From contig JAOPGA020001225.1 in the NCBI GenBank assembly GCA_026419775.2, forward strand, positions 1-36,065: a stretch of DNA of 36,065 nt, read 5' to 3'. The notes under the pieces were generated by a model. It ran no database searches. It saw only the letters and a list, made by a program, of their open reading frames with translations, and was not told where the DNA came from. Each line of letters opens with the position of its first letter. The stretch's first letter is position 1. Positions 25,176 through 35,932 of this stretch are shown here, in pieces. The DNA comes from Acrasis kona (taxonomy: Eukaryota; Heterolobosea; Eutetramitea; Acrasida; Acrasidae). A program made the position numbers and the translations under genes.

Positions 25176-28100
25176 ATGCACGCGCATTTCAGTAGCTCGG
25201 CATTCATGTGTATATTTCTGTTATTCACATGTATTAGTTATACATCATGCCAAACCCTGTATGCATATGGCACGAATAACCAAGGAGAGCTATGCAACGG
25301 ACTAAGATCACCGAGCGCTTCTCCTTATAGTAGTTATTTTGATGGCAGTAATATAAAGGCAGTAGCTGCTGCCAACTCCTTCGTAGTAGTGCTTACCAGC
25401 CAGAATACACTCTATACATGGTAACTATATCGAGTTTTATTCGCTAAAACAGAAATAGTGGGGATAATAGTTTGGGACAAGCAGGGAACAGTGGAACTGC
25501 TCCATATTATACCTCACCAACAAGAGTATATCAGAGCGGTGCCCTATTAGGGTCAACAATCACACAGATTTTTGCAAAAGACAGTCACGTACTGGCGCTC
25601 ACAAAGACAGGAGCAGTGATATCATGGTACGTACATACAAGTTACACTACGTTATAATCTTTCACAGGGGTAGTAACGTATATGGTCAATTAGGAATCGC
25701 ATCATCGTCAATTTCCTACTCCAACACACCACAAGCCGTCAATTTGTCACAACCACTTACCAACTCTCGCGTGGTTTACATTGGTGGTGGATATTCACAT
25801 TCAATAGCAGTGCTAAACGACGGAACATTAGCATCGTGGGGGTACAACAATAACTATCAACTTGGTTTGTCCGACACAACAAATCGTTACCAACCATTTC
25901 GAATTACCACCCCATCTAATGTCATTTTCAAAAAAGCAATGGGTGGTCAATACGTGTCATTCGCAATCACATCGAATGGTAATTTGTACGCATGGGGTCA
26001 GATTTCAGATTGGAAATTAGGACTTAACAGCACCATCGTTACGAACAGAACGACACCAGTGCTAATAACATCTACTAATTCCAATTTTAATTTGAAGTTT
26101 TTTGTGGATGTGGATGTCGGACTCAATCATGCAATTGCTTTAGCATCGGATGGATCCGTAATTACTTGGGGCGTTGGAAGTCAAGGACAAACAGGTAATC
26201 CTTCATTACCGAGTTCACATATGATGAGAGTGGTCGACACTAGTAACATAACCGATCCCATTGTTAAGGTATCAGCGGGTCATAATTATTCGATCATCTC
26301 TACAACCAATAATGTTCATGTATTTGGAGTGAACTCTGCTGGACTCGATGGTTAGTTTATATTTGTGTTTTATTCACCCATAACTATTGTATTCATATAG
26401 GAAGCACAGTTACCAACAATGCACTTGTCGTTCCTACTGCAATCAAGAGCGGAGTGATGGTGAATAGCACCGTGATTGATGTATGGGCAGGTCCAATGTC
26501 AATCTATATGCACATTGACAAAAACAATCCATCATCATCTCCTAATTTTTATCTATTTGGTTTGAATGGGTAAGCGAGCGTGTTTGTTTTTTAAAAATGT
26601 AACGATATATAGAAATCAACAGTTAGGGCTTAACACAACCGGTGTGTTTTTCCAAAAGATTCCTTTTTTATCTCAACTCACTAATGTATCGAGTGTTGCA
26701 GGTGGGTACGCTCATACTCTTGTATTAACTACGAATGGAATCTACGTAACGGGAGATAACACGTATGTAGTGTTTATAATTTATATATGAATAACCAATT
26801 AAAAAGTTTCGGTCAGTATGCAACAGGGAATGGTTACAGTTATTCGTATTTTGTTTCAATTAGCACTGCGCTACAAATAAAGGCTGTAGCTGCTGGTGAG
26901 TACCATAGCGTAGTCCTCACAAATGATTTCACAGTGTATTCAGCTGGAAATAACGCGTAACTTGTCAATTATTCCATTAATATTTAACTCTTTAAAGCAA
27001 TGGACAATTAGGGTTATTTGATACTACCAATAGGTATTTTTTCACAAGAACAAACATGACTAGCGCTGTGTCAATATACGCTGCTATTAGTAACACGATT
27101 GTAGTCAACTCTGATGGATCCATTTTTTGTATGGGTAGTGTTAGGTGAGTTTTATTTATTTTGATGTATTCATCATTTATATAGTTATGGTCAATGTGGT
27201 ATTGGAACAAGTCCATCCACTCTGAGCACACCTGCCAGAATCACTATTTCTGGTAAAAAGATTACATCAGCTTCCACTGGTGGCAATCATGTAATATTAG
27301 TATCATCAGATGGATGTGCGTATAGCGCAGGTAATAATGCGACTGCTCAACTCGGACGCTCATCAACCATCACGTCACCCACTTTATTTGGAATAATACC
27401 CATTAATGCATTCATAGTAAGCAGTGCTGCTGGTAAAGGCCACACCTTGTTGTTGACAAGTGATGGATCTGTTTATGGCATTGGATCCAATTCCAATCCA
27501 TATTATTCATTAGGAGTTGAAAATGTCAATCAGACCTTAACACCTATACAAATCACTTTTCCAATTTTGAATCAAAAATTTGTACAGATTCAATCAGGAT
27601 ATTACCATAGCTTTGCGGTGACTGGTGATGGAAGTGTTTATGCATTTGGTTATAATGGATTCTTCCAATTGGGTGATACTAGCAATAACGATTGGAGGAC
27701 ACCTATATTGATTGGATTAAAATTCAATCAAGCATCGGTTGCATGTGGGCCTTATCATTCTCTATTGGCTGGTGGTGCTAATTCTATCGTTTATCCCACT
27801 TTGGCACAATTCACTAACCAGAGTACGTCTGCAACACCTATCTATACTTTTCCAGTCACTCCCACACCTACGCCAACTCCAACGCTTACACCCACACCAA
27901 CCTCTACTCCCACAACAACGCTCACACCAACACCCACTCCTACACTCGCTTCCACACCGACTCCAACATCCATTCCAACTCCTACGCCTACTCCCACACC
28001 CACCCCTACTTTTACTCCAACACCTACTCCAACCTCTACTCCTATACCATTTAAAAAACTAATTTCATGGAGAATATTTGCTTTTGGATTGAATGACCAA

Positions 28101-31100
28101 GGTCAAACACAATTTAACAATGCAAACACTCCAATGCTGATCAACTCTGCCTGTCAAAATTTCTCATCCATTACTGCAGGTTACAAGCACAATTTATTAT
28201 TGACCACAAGTGGTAGTGTTTTATTTTTCGGATGGTACGTAATTTCATTTCAATTCGTAATAATCTTGATAGGAACAACAATGGGCAATCTGGTCATTTG
28301 ACGACTGGTAATCAATATAGAGATGGTCTTGTGGATTTTAAATTAAATTCTGCAATAGCAGTACAAGCGAGTGGTGGCGATCAACACTCATTAGTGTTAT
28401 TGAGCAATGGATCAGTTTTAGCATCAGGATCCAATAGTTATTATGAATTAGGGAATGGGTTCGATAACTACAATTCTGCAGCACCTCGATTAGTTTGTTT
28501 CAGTGGAGTTGTGAAATACATTAGCGCAGGAAGTGCCATGTCGTTTATTATTGATGCGAATGGAACTGCTTATGGATTTGGATCCAATGCTCAACGAGCT
28601 CTTGGTATAGGTACCTCCAGCGTGTATACAATTCCTACAGCTGTTGTTTCTACTGCATGGACCGGTAAGTATGTTACCAAAGTAAGTGCTGGTTACTCCC
28701 ATTCATTGTTCTTGATATCCGATGGAACGGTGTATGGATCTGGTATGAATCAGTAAGTTTATACTGTAAAAGTTTGATGTGACTTGGATAGATTTGGAGA
28801 ATTAGGAACAGGTGATAATATCACATACTCTACGCCCACTTTGATGACTGGATTGAGTTCTAAAATCGTTACGCAGATAAGTGCATCGTTTTATTACTCT
28901 AGTATGATTCTAACGAGTGATGGAATTGTTTATACTGTTGGTTATAACAAGTAAGTGATGGTGTGATGAACTATTTGAATAATGATTTAGTTTGGGTCAA
29001 TTAGGATTAAATGATACAATTAATCGAAGCGTTCCAACTCCTATTGTGACAATTGGAACTGGGTTGTATGGAAAGACGATTGTTAATATAGCAGGAAGTG
29101 GAAGTGGACATGCATTGGTGTTAACATCAGATGGATTGCTATTTGGATTTGGAAGTAATTTGTGAGTGGATGTTGAATATTTTTTATTGACTTTGATAGA
29201 TATGGTCAGTTGGGAACAGGTACAGGTACTGGGCCTTTTACGACTGCTACACCGGTTGATACCTCTGGTCAATTGAATGGTTATCGAGTGGTAGATGTGG
29301 GTATAGGTGGCGCTCATTCGATTGTAGCGGCTGTTAATGATAGTGAAGCCTATACGTGCTTTGTTACGCCGACACCTACTCCGACTGATACGCCAAACCC
29401 TACATCCACTCCAACATGTACACCTACTGCTACTGCAACTGTAACACAAACACAAACTAACACTCAAGCTCCTACAGAAACGCCAACATCAATTCCAACA
29501 CAAACCAACACTCCAAATCCAGCTATTACTCCCACTCCTACTGTAATAGTAACGCCATCATCAACACCTACTTCCCCCATTGTTACATTGATTCCATCGC
29601 CTACTCTTACAATAACGGACTCACCAACAATAATTCCTACGGCAACACAGACTGATCCGCCTACTTTACCATCAATTGAGATTTCAACTCCAACACTCAC
29701 ACATACCTGTACTACCACTGATACGCCCACTACAACCCCTACACCTACTCCAACATGTACACCTACTACTACTGCAACAGTAACACCAACACAAACCAGC
29801 GTTCAATCTGTGACAATTCCCATACAAACTTCTACACATACAACTACCCTTATTTCTACTCCTACCCAAATAGGTACTCCAACACAATCACCAACAGCTA
29901 CTGAAACGACAATAACATCAACATCGACTCCAACACATATACCTACTTTGACGCCGATGGCAACATCTACGTCCAGTCCAACTACACTTACTGTAACTCC
30001 AACGCACATACCTATTGCAACAGATACATCATCATCTGTGCCTACTGTATTCCCAACGCCAACATTCTATACTACCACAACTACTGGCACTCCTACTCCA
30101 ACGCCAACAGAAATACTAACAACTCCTGTCACACCTACACTAACGTCAGTGTTGATTGTTTCTTCCACGCCCACCGCAACACCCACTCCAATGTGCACAT
30201 CTACTTCAACTTCAATGCCAACGCTGACACCTACACAAACTGGTGCATCAACAAGTACGATTATACTTGCTCCAACACATACTTCAACGCAATTTGAAAC
30301 CAACACACTCGCTTCTACTCTGGTACTATCTCCTACAGTAACGCAGGTGTCAACAACTACTGTAATTCCTACTCTAACTTCTACAATAACATACACGCCA
30401 TCAGATACGCAGACCCAAACAATGGCACAAACCCTAACTCCTGCTGTTACTCCAACGCGAACACCAATACCATCTACCTTCATTCCCACTACAAACATAC
30501 CAACATCAACCATTACACCAGCTACTCAACACGCTTCTCCTATCTACTCATATACAATTCAACCACCAATAGGTACCGCATTGGTCACCAACTTTACTTT
30601 CTCCACCCAATCTTCATGCTCTACTATATGTTGTTATGGATACTATCTACTCGACAACTCGCCCTTTATACTCTCATGTACCAATAACAGCTCGTCCTTT
30701 ACAACATCAAGCTTACCATTTGGGTCCCACCAATCATTTAATTCATCTCCATACCAACTCACCACGTTCTTTAAGGTTGGCCAGATAATTGTTCAAACAA
30801 TCAACGTTACAGTACATCCATCATTTCAACAGCCCATCACTTATCAATCTTCATCTATGCTTTATTCTAATCTACTGCCATTGTGGAATGTTCATGATGA
30901 GCTTAGAACGAGTGCATTGATCCAAATGATGAATACTCCATCTGCAACAGTTGCTCCTTGCAACGAACATTGTAATTGTGATCCATTGATTCATCAATGT
31001 ATTTGTGATGGAGGTATTGATTGCAGCATGGAAGCATCAACTATGAGCGAACTACAATCCATTCGTCATTCTATTTTATTGGATTTGTACAACTCCATGA

Positions 31101-33586
31101 ATAAAACCAACGTTGATGTTGTCATGGGGCATATGGTACAATTGACTAAAGTACCTTCAGAGATCTCCTCTAATAGCATTGATTTAATATTATCCATGAC
31201 TGACGAGAGATTGGGTCAAAATGATGATGAAGGGCACTCGTTGATGAATGAAATGAACAATATAGTTAACATGCTATCAAATGTAGCTACTAGTTGTATT
31301 ATTAATTCTAACAAGACGTGTACGAACGAAATTACTCAAAAGTTGATCAATATTACTCATGTGATACATAATGAAGATGATGATGATGTAATGAGAATAT
31401 CTTCACCACTTTATAATGTAGTATTTGTGAGTAGTAATGGTTTGGATTTGAAACAATCCAACATAACATCATCTACAGGTGATAGGTATCAATGGCAAAT
31501 ATTTATGCCCATTGATTTTATGGACAATCATGGAGTATCATTAATATCCAATGATGTAGACTATCATGTCATTGTTGTATCTAGTCCAATGATTGATGGT
31601 CACAATCGTGTAGTTAGTTACAACAATAATGAAACCACAGCAACACCAGGTTTGCAACAATCCTCCATTGTAGTATCTATACAAGTCATGGATCATTCCT
31701 CATCTTCCATTATTCACTTTGAAAATCTAATCCATCCCATTCGATTTCATCTACCAATAACTAATTATTCACTTCCACAGAACTACACTCATGTGTGCCA
31801 TTATTATGATGATTACTATGATAGATGGGACACACGTGGTGTAAAAACCATGAATCACTCCATTGATAATCACACCATCACGTGTACGTCCAATCACACC
31901 ACTTCATTCACTGCATTTATGCAGTCACTGACACCACACATCAACACCCTCGCTTTGAGTGATTTGACTAACATCAAAAACCTCAACCAAGATAATAACA
32001 CAGTAGTCATCGTGTTAGGAATTTTGTCTGTTATTTACTTTCTCACAATCATTGGTATATCTATAGCTAATTGTATTGGCATAAGAATGTTCGGAAGAAC
32101 AAAAAATAAAATTGTTCAATCTGTACGTCCCATTAGTAACACAAGAAAATTCCTATTCAGATATGTCGATTATTGTAGTTACTTGGCATATCTACGAAAA
32201 AAGAGAACAGGTGCATTGGGTAGAATAGAAAAAATTACTTTATTGTACATGTGTTTCATTGGTATGATGTTGAGCAATGCTGTTTCTTATTCTCAACAAA
32301 ATAACGAAAATATCTATCAGTTCCTCATTAGTGGTGTCATTGGTAGTTTAGTCATAGTGCCGTTCGTTGCACTGGGTAGTTTCTTGTTTACAAAAGTTAG
32401 ATGGAATCAAAAGAAGGTGACGAACAATAGAAGACAGAGTATTACTCCCATGATTGAAGCACATAATTCATTAGAAGTGTCATTTGAAAGAGATGCGTCA
32501 TCAGTTGTTAATGTAGATATTTATGAATCGAGTAAACCGAATTGGTATGATAAATTGATTAATAAATTGGAGAGATTGGGCGACAGTGCAATGGATACTA
32601 CTGTACTTTTGATTAAGAAGTTAACGTGGCATAGTTATTTGATATTTGCTCTTTGTACACTGATTTACTTCTTGTTAGCTAGCGCCATCATTATATTGGC
32701 CATGTTTTGCTTTCCTAAACTAAATGACATTTCAATATTCTCGTTGGGTGGAATTTTGGTTGATGCTTACTTTTTATTCTTGTACATTAGTTTTATTTAT
32801 ATACGCTACAAGAAGTTCATGAATAAAGAATTATTGTCGTGGAGAGCATCCTATCTCACTCTTGGTGTTGGTTTTGTGTTGATTGTGTTGAGCATCGCCA
32901 CCATAATCTTGTTATCTCTTGCTGTTAGTTTTTGGATTAGTGATGATACGATATGGCACGATAGAGTAGCTGTTATTGATGTTTATTTTTGTGTATTGAC
33001 ATTAACGCAGATTGTATGGTTAGTTATCATGAGTATCAATAGGAGAAACGATCCACCACCTCAAAGCATCTCTGAGCTGACAATAAATACTAGCGCTAAT
33101 GATGAGGGACAATCCAAATTCATCAGATTAATCAAGAAGCTTATTAATCACGTAAGCAGCCCAACTTGGTTTCCGTGGTGGTGCATTGTGTTTGTTTATC
33201 TTTATTGTTATACCTATCTTGCTATCTGCATGTATTTTTTGATAGTGTACGGGATAAAATTTGGTAGTCAAGATAAAGAGTGGTTGAAGGCTTGTGTGAT
33301 CTCTGTAACACAAGATGCATTCTTTAACAACCCTGTTGGGTTTGTAGTTAAAACTATCGTTATTGGTGTAATATTGCTCTTTATAGAGTCGCTCTTTTTT
33401 GCAAGTGATATTGGGGATTTGTTTAGCAAGAATAACGTAGTAGCAGGACAAGAATCCACACGTGTTGATCTTGAAGTACCATACAACGTGGATCCAGTCG
33501 AAGATGCCCAAAATGTTGATCTCGCATATGAAGAAAACGAGGTATATTATTCTGATCAAATCCAAAATTCTGAACAAGACGACTAA
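25176..33586 (+). CDS. Giant receptor: 21 RCC1 blades, Pro/Thr stalk, REJ-like, GAIN/GPS and polycystin-1-like membrane region
   Basis: Twelve exons: 25176-25420, 25459-25626, 25668-26350, 26401-26569, 26613-26762, 26807-26956, 26998-27144, 27185-28234, 28273-28752, 28792-28950, 28991-29161, 29200-33586. Introns are 38-50 nt and every junction keeps the frame (2652 residues). Residues 1-25 are a signal peptide (cleavage near TSC-Q). Fourteen RCC1 repeats of about 50 residues follow (G.N..GQLG and AGG.H...L..DG motifs), then a Thr-Pro linker (about 795-858), seven more RCC1 repeats (to about 1240) and a Thr/Pro stalk (about 1246-1634). Next come a REJ-like module ([14 protein letters not shown], about 1638-1735), a small Cys-rich segment (about 1777-1800), a GAIN-like region and a GPS motif (about 2056-2096: CHYY...W.T.G...C...NHTTSF). 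Some nine hydrophobic helices end the protein, with polycystin-1 marks [20 protein letters not shown] and FPWWC...YGIKFG...EWL. There is no PLAT domain and no TRP-like channel part. It is likely a surface receptor; ligand unknown. Confidence 0.9.
27855..28046 (+). repeat. Pro/Thr-coding simple repeat, linker 1
   Basis: Degenerate (ACNCCN) hexamers encoding Thr-Pro dipeptides for about 64 residues, with Ser, Leu, Ile and Phe now and then. It separates blades 14 and 15 of the RCC1 protein and is likely an O-glycosylated spacer between propellers. The low-complexity codons (synonymous positions vary) suggest the repeat is old or kept by selection on protein sequence. Confidence 0.9.
29365..30530 (+). 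repeat. Pro/Thr-coding simple repeat, stalk 2
   Basis: About 390 residues dominated by Thr, Pro, Ser and Ile, with no Lys-rich or aromatic stretch. It is less regular than linker 1 (TPTPT mixed with TSTPT, TQT, TITP). As an extracellular segment it should form an extended mucin-like stalk that lifts the propellers from the membrane-proximal REJ/GAIN region. The opposite strand shows spurious long frames of Val and Gly that are not genes. Confidence 0.9.
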
Positions 33587-33751: not shown

Positions 33752-34034
33752 ATGTATTCAAGAAACAGTGACCACAACAAATACTACTCCAGCGTACACA
33801 ACCCAAACTACACCAATTATCGGAACTGTTCAACCAGTTCACACACACAGTCATGAAACTGCCAAAGGCATTGTTGGAGGTGCAGTGGCTTCAACTGCAG
33901 TGGTAAGTTCTTTTGTTTATTTGTCTCCTCAATTATTATAGGGTGCAGGTCCAATTGTTGGAGGTGTACTTGGAGGTATAGTTGGACACCATAAGAAAAA
34001 TAAGCACGAGGTACAGGGAACCCATCGTTACTAA
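33752..34034 (+). pseudogene. Small glycine-zipper protein with a 1-nt frame problem after the ATG
   Basis: From 33756 a frame runs QETVTTTNTTPAYTTQ, then a Thr/Gln/His-rich part, then AKGIVGGAVASTAV. After a 39-nt phase-0 intron (33903-33941) it continues GAGPIVGGVLGGIVGHHKKNKH to a TAA at 34034. The GxxxG spacing marks a glycine-zipper hydrophobic segment with a His/Lys tail, similar in style to small membrane or stress proteins. The only upstream ATG (33752) is one base out of frame: an extra T at 33755 separates ATG from this frame. The clean intron and frame argue that the gene was functional recently. An assembly error, a non-AUG start or a true frameshift are all possible; I label it pseudogene only because the frame as given is broken. 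Confidence 0.55.
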
Positions 34035-34984: not shown

Positions 34985-35050
34985 CTATGATGGCGGATGT
35001 GAAAGTGGGTGGCCTAACATTATTCCGAGATTGGCTATGATAGCGGATGT
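34951..35050. repeat. 50-bp tandem duplication across the transposase 3' end
   Basis: Two adjacent 50-bp copies (34951-35000 and 35001-35050) that differ at two positions (34977 A versus 35027 G; 34992 G versus 35042 A). The duplication shifts the reading frame of the transposase at its C-terminus and creates an early TAG. Confidence 0.95.
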
Positions 35051-35932
35051 AAAAAAAGCCAGATGGTGCTTGTCTCTACCGTGTCTCCATACTCCACTTA
35101 AAGCTCTAAATACTTTAATCCTCCCAATTGCATTCTCGACAAGTATTCTGACTGATCCAATTACTCTATTAGCTGCAGCTTGAGCTTCTCCGATATTGGC
35201 TCCCTTGTATGGTACAATACAATTATCCAAGCCAATGTACCCATTATCAGCAAGGATGACCTCACCTCTTCGTAGTTTGATGTCTGGTCTTCGAAGCCAC
35301 GATCGTGCCATCGAAATGTCGTGTACAGTCCCTCGAAAGGGTCCATGAATGTCAAGTATACGTCCATCTATCAACGATACCACAACATGGTACTTCACCA
35401 TATGGTTCTTGTGCTTTCCTGAATAATAGATGCGCTGGATGTCCCAACCTCCAGGAGGACACTCCGTCCCATCTATAATGATTTTACAGTGACGGAGTAT
35501 CCCAGTATCAATGTTATCATCAAAACGTCCATCAAAATCAAACTTTTTGTAGGTTAGCAGGATTTAAAATTTATGTTGTCTTACCACAGGCATGCAATGC
35601 TGGACTACTTTGGCCATTGTCTTCCATATTATCTCTGAATATGTTTCATAATTCAACCTAACTTGCAGAAGTACTGTTCTTGATGTAGGGTAGACCTTTA
35701 AAAAATGTGATGTTAAAATGAGATCACGAGCTGTAACATCATGTGTGTGCAATACTTCTAATAAAAATCCTAACAACTCTGGCCAAGTCCCTATAGATTC
35801 ACTAAATTGTCTTTTACCCCTTGACTTGAATATTCTTGTGAAAGATTCTAAAATCTTGTATAGAAGTTTTTATGATATGGAGGCATTTGTTAATTCACAA
35901 ACCACTTCTCGCAACTGACACCCATCCATCAT
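34985..35932 (-). CDS. Harbinger-type DDE transposase (DDE_Tnp_4 superfamily), C-terminus altered
   Basis: Proposed exons 35932-35903, 35854-35585 and 35542-34985, with introns of 48 nt (GTTTGT donor) and 42 nt (GTAAGA donor), both phase 0, give 285 residues. The nuclease core is well preserved. The first Asp is in KIIIDGTE, followed by QRIYYSGKHKNHMVKY. The second Asp is in ILADNGYIG. The Glu is in VENAIGRIK. So the DDE triad is intact. Harbinger elements usually also encode a Myb-like DNA-binding protein; none is seen here, but the window ends 133 bp upstream. The last residues (HPPS) are an effect of a 50-bp tandem duplication. The first exon is short and less certain than the others. The spliced frame suggests an element that was active recently or is domesticated. 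Confidence 0.82.

Follow-up and report, generated by a model that had tools for sequence, protein, structure and literature searches.

An RCC1-headed gene for a GPS-bearing, nine-helix putative receptor in Acrasis kona and its paralogue family

In adhesion G-protein-coupled receptors (GPCRs) the GPS is cut between HL and T/S, its cysteines number from 2 to 4 and the stalk, once free, is believed to serve as an agonist, according to the excerpted text of PMC9672506, which also gives polycystin-1 eleven helices; cleavage and stalk are described likewise for polycystin-1 in the part of PMC11458180 drawn on here. Among protists, Ectocarpus Esi0130_0068 is a REJ, GPS and multi-helix protein of 1427 residues with 6 or 7 predicted helices and a channel match reported inside the REJ, RCC1 being unmentioned in the excerpt of PMC4700764 that describes it. 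The CRMPs have an EGF-receptor-type domain, HHpred detects a GAIN domain in CRMP1 and CRMP2 of Tetrahymena, and the Toxoplasma and Plasmodium members have nine predicted helices against five in Tetrahymena (PMC9670195, excerpted part). Here we describe a gene of Acrasis kona (25176..33586 on the forward strand of contig JAOPGA020001225.1, the whole 36,065 nucleotides of which are our window) whose 2652-residue product places an array of RCC1 propeller blades in front of a GPS and nine hydrophobic segments. The locus is the contig labelled C618 in a 37.35-Mb assembly of 1021 contigs, and its paralogues are likewise labelled by contig (C463 etc.).

With the polycystin-1/REJ family (PKD1, PKDREJ and the sea-urchin REJ proteins) the window protein shares a GAIN/GPS ahead of the first helix, similar helices 2-3, REJ in sister paralogues and one REJ-type module of its own, but it differs in its RCC1 head, in having nine helices instead of eleven, and in the lack of a PLAT match and of a channel module. 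Like the adhesion GPCRs (ADGRF1, latrophilin), it has a GAIN/GPS, an H-x-T site, a stem start that aligns with ADGRF1 and a long modular ectodomain, whereas its nine helices and the missing 7tm_2 match set it apart; we know of no adhesion GPCR with an RCC1 head. RCC1-like propeller proteins (RCC1, HERC, UVR8, Nek8) are nuclear or cytosolic, and although they have the same repeats, with blades about 50-60 residues apart, they differ from the window protein in its probable signal peptide, glycosylation sequons and receptor core. Esi0130_0068 has the GPS and multi-helix region in common with the window protein but 6 or 7 predicted helices instead of nine, and the excerpt makes no mention of an RCC1 head. 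The CRMPs, likened here by description only (excerpt of PMC9670195), share EGF-type and GAIN domains and, in the apicomplexan members, nine helices, while their head has Kringle and MAR domains. Among the papers listed by a literature search, with subscription journals mostly outside it and databases unsearched by architecture, none describes a protein that combines RCC1 with GPS or GAIN, and it is quite possible that such a protein has already been annotated in databases.

Gene model and RCC1 head

Exon joining and translation gave a gene of 12 exons (25176-25420, 25459-25626, 25668-26350, 26401-26569, 26613-26762, 26807-26956, 26998-27144, 27185-28234, 28273-28752, 28792-28950, 28991-29161 and 29200-33586; this and all features of the gene below lie on the forward strand) in a window of 39.7% GC. 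The coordinates, the single spliced frame and the length of 2652 residues given by the initial annotation were all exact, and the sole stop codon is at the C-terminal end. The 11 introns are GT-AG and 38-50 nt long; retention of 10 of them brings a stop immediately or inside the intron, and that of intron 8 (38 nt) shifts the frame. A homology-blind splice script recovered 8 of the 11 exactly, with mismatches at introns 1, 2 and 5, whose borders were set so as to preserve the RCC1 motif and all of which fall within RCC1 blades, so that the joint between head and receptor is unaffected by this uncertainty. The last RCC1 half-blade, the long stalk, the GAIN part and all the helices form a single open frame of 1469 residues, so that any break between two genes near 29.3 kb or 30.5 kb would lie within an open exon.

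The protein starts with a hydrophobic N-terminus, a probable signal peptide as read from the translation (residues 1-25, 25176..25250), followed by 14 RCC1 blades with introns within (residues 28 to about 770, exons 1-8, 25257..27782) identified by Pfam RCC1/WD40_RLD and by blade motifs. A first Pro/Thr stalk (residues 786-860, 27828..28052; 32 Thr and 25 Pro in 75 residues) leads to 7 more blades (residues about 865-1240, 28065..29347, again with introns within) and a second, longer stalk (residues 1247-1635, 29366..30532; 149 Thr and 66 Pro in the 394 residues 1247-1640). On residues 1-768, Pfam gave 429 bits for WD40_RLD (PF25390) and 276 bits for RCC1 (PF00415), both above cut-off. By motif there are 21 blades (14 + 7) spaced about 50-60 residues apart; blades 15-21 are assigned by motif, and 28427-28951 also matches the RCC1 part of paralogue C463 (E 2.3e-8). 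The 14 blades are enough for two seven-bladed propellers and the 7 for one more, and there are probably three propellers in all. N-glycosylation sequons are concentrated ahead of the membrane core (33 of 35 are N-terminal to residue 2121), and the RCC1 head is predicted to be extracellular. The initial reading of an RCC1 head that bears secretion marks and is joined to a multi-helix core with a GPS is supported, both RCC1 and GPS being found by profile (276 and 25.5 bits).

It may be noted that the introns (25421-29199) are of phase 2 in 10 of 11 cases and that seven of them interrupt the RCC1 motif at the identical point (between GxN and xxGQLG, or equivalent), so that five exons are exactly one blade each. 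Intron 5, which was not recovered blind, belongs to this blade-boundary set. In the sister gene C463 the RCC1 part has no introns.

Cleavage region and nine-helix core

Past the second stalk lies a single beta module that resembles the last REJ module (residues 1636-1732, 30533..30823). When these residues and those of three sister proteins (a four-member profile) were compared by hhalign with the last REJ-region module of five other paralogues, the match had E 4.1e-10 and a score of 56.2, whereas 60 column shuffles reached 15.6 at most, the segments having been picked by eye ahead of the test; the window sequence alone gave E 0.039. The Pfam REJ domain (PF02010) had no match at E <= 1 in the last exon, and a complete REJ domain was rejected. 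Of the REJ region originally proposed, one REJ-type module therefore stands and the complete domain does not. An EGF-like loop of six cysteines follows (residues 1778-1799, 30959..31024, from the cysteine positions) at the place where C463 has a Pfam EGF domain; Pfam EGF had no match in the scanned stretches of the window protein itself.

The GAIN-like domain (residues about 1800-2091, 31025..31900) extends up to the predicted cleavage site, and the GPS motif (31796..31921) matches PF01825 with 25.5 bits against a cut-off of 22.5. The predicted cut falls after H2090-T2091 and before T2092, with 31901 as the first base past it. A family profile of 20 members, from which paralogue C814 was omitted since it matched in pieces, matches the GAIN/GPS structures of adhesion GPCRs (ADGRF1 E 4e-12, latrophilin-3 2.4e-10, BAI3 4.8e-4). 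At the H-x-T site the His and the last Thr are present in 20 of 20 aligned members (middle residue T in 17, L in 2 and C in 1), as are the first GPS cysteine, the Trp and the third cysteine. Sixteen of the 20 members keep GPS cysteines 2 and 4, whereas a clade of four (the window protein, C529, C463 and C885) has neither and retains H-x-T; their joint absence suggests the loss of one whole disulphide. Directly past the cut comes a conserved stem (residues 2092-2120, 31901..31987), a candidate tethered agonist, the start of which aligns with ADGRF1 when the 20-member profile is set against the structures. Its mean column agreement of 0.62 is the joint highest of ten segments; helices 2-3 (0.62) and 8-9 (0.60) are similar, while the GAIN stretch ahead of the GPS has 0.35 and the tail, the least conserved, 0.19.

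By simple hydropathy there are nine hydrophobic segments C-terminal to the GPS, in line with the about nine helices first counted. These are helix 1 (residues 2126-2144, 32003..32059), helices 2-3 (residues 2203-2250, 32234..32377; the part that resembles polycystin-1 in profile comparisons), helices 4-7 (residues 2338-2470, 32639..33037) and helices 8-9 (residues 2520-2590, 33185..33397), after which the translation gives a short cytosolic tail (residues 2591-2652, 33398..33583). The expected absence of PLAT and of the channel module held, in that Pfam PLAT and PKD channel had no match at E <= 1 in residues 1-768 and the last exon. A PLAT profile search of the genome also found nothing, but its positive control gave no match either. 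Likewise 7tm_2 had no Pfam match in the last exon and none in a genome search where the positive control failed to match as well.

To relate the core to known structures, profiles of its parts were searched PDB-wide. With the helices 2-3 profile (20 members), human polycystin-1 (6a70_B 241-329) was found at E 0.046, a malarial aminopeptidase ahead of it at E 0.024 being taken as chance; with a shorter profile (19 members) polycystin-1 ranks first at E 0.27, and with the whole-core profile it appears at E 2.2 for the same stretch, colinear, behind ND3 at 1.9. We regard the rank as more telling than the E-value because polycystin-1 was named before any search. The helices 2-3 piece, which had been selected from the whole-core result, scored 22.6 bits against polycystin-1, while 9000 shuffles of three kinds reached no more than 13.6; by hhalign it gave E 2.4e-7 and a score of 40.5, which compares with at most 21.7 in 100 shuffles. 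We take helices 2-3 to be probably homologous to those of polycystin-1. The helices 8-9 profile (18 of 20 members) had no PDB match at E <= 10 and the helices 2-3 profile of the REJ clade (five members) gave no polycystin-1 match; since these are unmatched and four helices stand between helix 3 and the last pair, the core is not simply a cut-down polycystin-1. The polycystin-1-like label of the initial annotation thus keeps the helices 2-3 similarity and the REJ domains of five paralogues on the same core, and loses the last helix pair and the REJ-clade match. Filing the protein as an adhesion GPCR was rejected, seven helices matching 7tm_2 not being found, and so was filing it as polycystin-1, for which a full REJ domain, PLAT after helix 1 and eleven helices ending in a channel module were looked for and not found.

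Paralogues with differing heads

The fusion is not a one-off, as the genome has at least 8 RCC1-GPS genes including that of the window; the number is a lower bound because only 150 of 774 RCC1 candidates were scored and, besides flanks, five further stretches were read. The C-terminal part of the window protein has 47 matches in the genome, the GPS family occupies 42 places at E <= 1 (41 above cut-off), and the C-terminal receptor part is common to at least 21 loci, which may be fewer genes as C901 and C990 are close copies. The clearest relative is C463, where one uninterrupted frame of 1876 residues runs from the first blade to the end with an RCC1-like domain (219 bits), two EGF domains, GPS (24.2 bits) and nine helices, so the fusion does not depend on splicing. 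The start codon of C463 is not within the first residues of this frame, which makes a small first exon further upstream probable. Judged from agreement in frame lengths and coordinates, C746, C403, C306 and C209 also have RCC1 and GPS in one uninterrupted frame; C529 has its RCC1 array partly inside the receptor frame and the rest outside, and C585 has a partial RCC1 in it. The GPS of C403 scored 29.9 bits in the genome search, yet a Pfam scan of the C403 frame gave no GPS at E <= 0.01. Simple hydropathy gave nine segments after the GPS for 18 of the 21 members; two others have 8 and one has 10, with one pre-GPS segment left out in each of three rows.

The heads on this common core differ. RCC1 heads are found on C618 (the window), C463, C529, C746 and C585, NHL propellers on C901, C885 and C625, laminin-G on C506, EGF on C862 and C569, and REJ on five paralogues (C583, C72, C775, C767 and a second gene on C569). 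When the C-terminal parts of 21 loci are placed on a tree (823 columns, with C625 and five others scored as head unknown), the RCC1 head requires 4 changes, at least 3 of them forced by the starred branches. NHL-headed C885 is sister to RCC1-headed C529 (97/95) within the window's clade of four (100/99), and the REJ heads form one side of a branch (100/100). C585 is on a long branch and its placement is unsure, and the window has an odd letter composition. The RCC1 label shows no more clustering on the tree than labels assigned at random (151 of 500 shuffles were as low), in keeping with head exchange.

With the C-terminal part as query, a large protein database gave no match at E <= 0.001 among 7691 candidates; the 20-member profile gave one weak match there (P0001, 1278 residues, E 1.8e-5, 6% of the query covered) and the core-only profile none at E <= 10 among 8000 scored. 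Viral contigs (75 stretches) and prokaryote contigs (14 stretches) held no relative.

Some further observations concern the genome and the window. RCC1 repeats occur in at least 150 places at E <= 0.001 among the 150 of 774 candidates scored, a large expansion. In two of the RCC1-GPS proteins, C306 (one frame of 2639 residues) and C403 (which additionally holds part of a REJ domain), inspection by eye showed one membrane helix and not nine. The locus pairs C862/C277, C979/C462 and C569/C221 are on different contigs with near-equal scores and are perhaps alleles or recent duplicates (unaligned). Upstream of the receptor gene (2647-24489) the neighbours are ordinary, namely RhoGAP, Kelch, cofilin-SH3, AAA ATPase, NOC3, WD40, steroid dehydrogenase and PAP2 proteins. 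Directly downstream, at about 33753-34034, is a small frame that, by eye, seems to contain an intron and to encode a hydrophobic stretch rich in glycine, and further on a DDE transposase (DDE_Tnp_4, 78.9 bits; 34988-35563, reverse strand).

Proposed function and alternative readings

We consider it reasonably probable that the window protein is a contact receptor of the cell surface that cleaves itself, has an exchangeable head and carries a tethered agonist. The 21 RCC1 blades, held off the membrane by the Pro/Thr stalks, would recognise a ligand presented by prey, a mate, a neighbour or the substrate. Self-cleavage by the GAIN/GPS would occur after HT, both halves remaining associated, until pull or binding at the head frees or reorients the conserved stem; the stem may then act as a tethered agonist on the nine-helix core, and the signal would be passed inside, plausibly to G proteins. 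The genome holds 74 matches to G-alpha (best E 3.3e-124, with the weaker among them perhaps other GTPases), so such coupling is possible. What the sequence itself shows is the order of the domains, the intact residues of the cleavage site, the conserved stem, the nine hydrophobic segments and the varied heads of the family; location outside the cell, cleavage, binding of a ligand, tethered agonism and coupling to G proteins are inferred from it. Several points weigh against this proposal. The core is not of the seven-helix type (nine segments and no 7tm_2 match in the last exon), and a single-sequence structure prediction was of low confidence (pLDDT 43.8, pTM 0.32). The window GPS is without the cysteine pair that 16 of 20 members have, a loss that could make its fold weaker, although PMC9672506 puts the range at 2-4 cysteines, and the RCC1 array could be a rigid spacer that binds nothing.

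The core might instead be a true polycystin-1 membrane domain minus PLAT and channel, partnering a polycystin-2-like channel. The helices 2-3 match to 6a70_B, its first rank with the shorter profile, its colinearity and its margin over shuffles would agree with this, as would the REJ heads of five paralogues and the polycystin channel family members at five genome places (C360, C604, C453, C11, C740), which are possible partners. Yet the aminopeptidase outscores polycystin-1, the whole-core match is weak and behind ND3, helices 8-9 and the REJ-clade profile are unmatched, PLAT and channel give no match, and four helices intervene between helix 3 and the last pair; we therefore hold this reading to be unlikely. 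Still less probable, by analogy, is a CRMP-like sensor in which head contact would trigger exocytosis without a classical G-protein pathway. The resemblance lies in the EGF-like loop, the GAIN domain and the nine hydrophobic segments of the window protein, the CRMPs being known here by description only, but Tetrahymena CRMPs have five predicted helices and nothing links the window gene to secretion. That the model merges two genes, one for a secreted RCC1 protein and one for a receptor, is very improbable and largely refuted: the model was made from genomic sequence and three introns depend on keeping the RCC1 motif, but half-blade, stalk, GAIN and helices share the open 1469-residue frame, and C463, and by frame lengths and coordinates C746, hold RCC1 and GPS in one unbroken frame. 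A split gene was accordingly rejected on the single open last exon and the uninterrupted frame of C463.

If the contact-receptor reading is true, RCC1 propellers would be placed outside the cell as receptor heads, and their ligands become a direct biochemical question. Head exchange would have diversified GAIN-type self-cleaving receptors in a protist, in parallel with the adhesion GPCRs of animals. The core, lacking PLAT and channel, would also allow the stalk-responsive part of polycystin-1 to be studied alone. More tentatively, and at somewhat less than even odds in our judgement, the family may represent a large protist repertoire of contact receptors in which interchangeable glycosylated heads (RCC1, NHL, laminin-G, EGF, REJ) sit on one self-cleaving, nine-helix tethered-agonist chassis related to a polycystin-1 ancestor, with RCC1 propellers, which in other settings are intracellular scaffolds, serving as outward-facing recognition heads.

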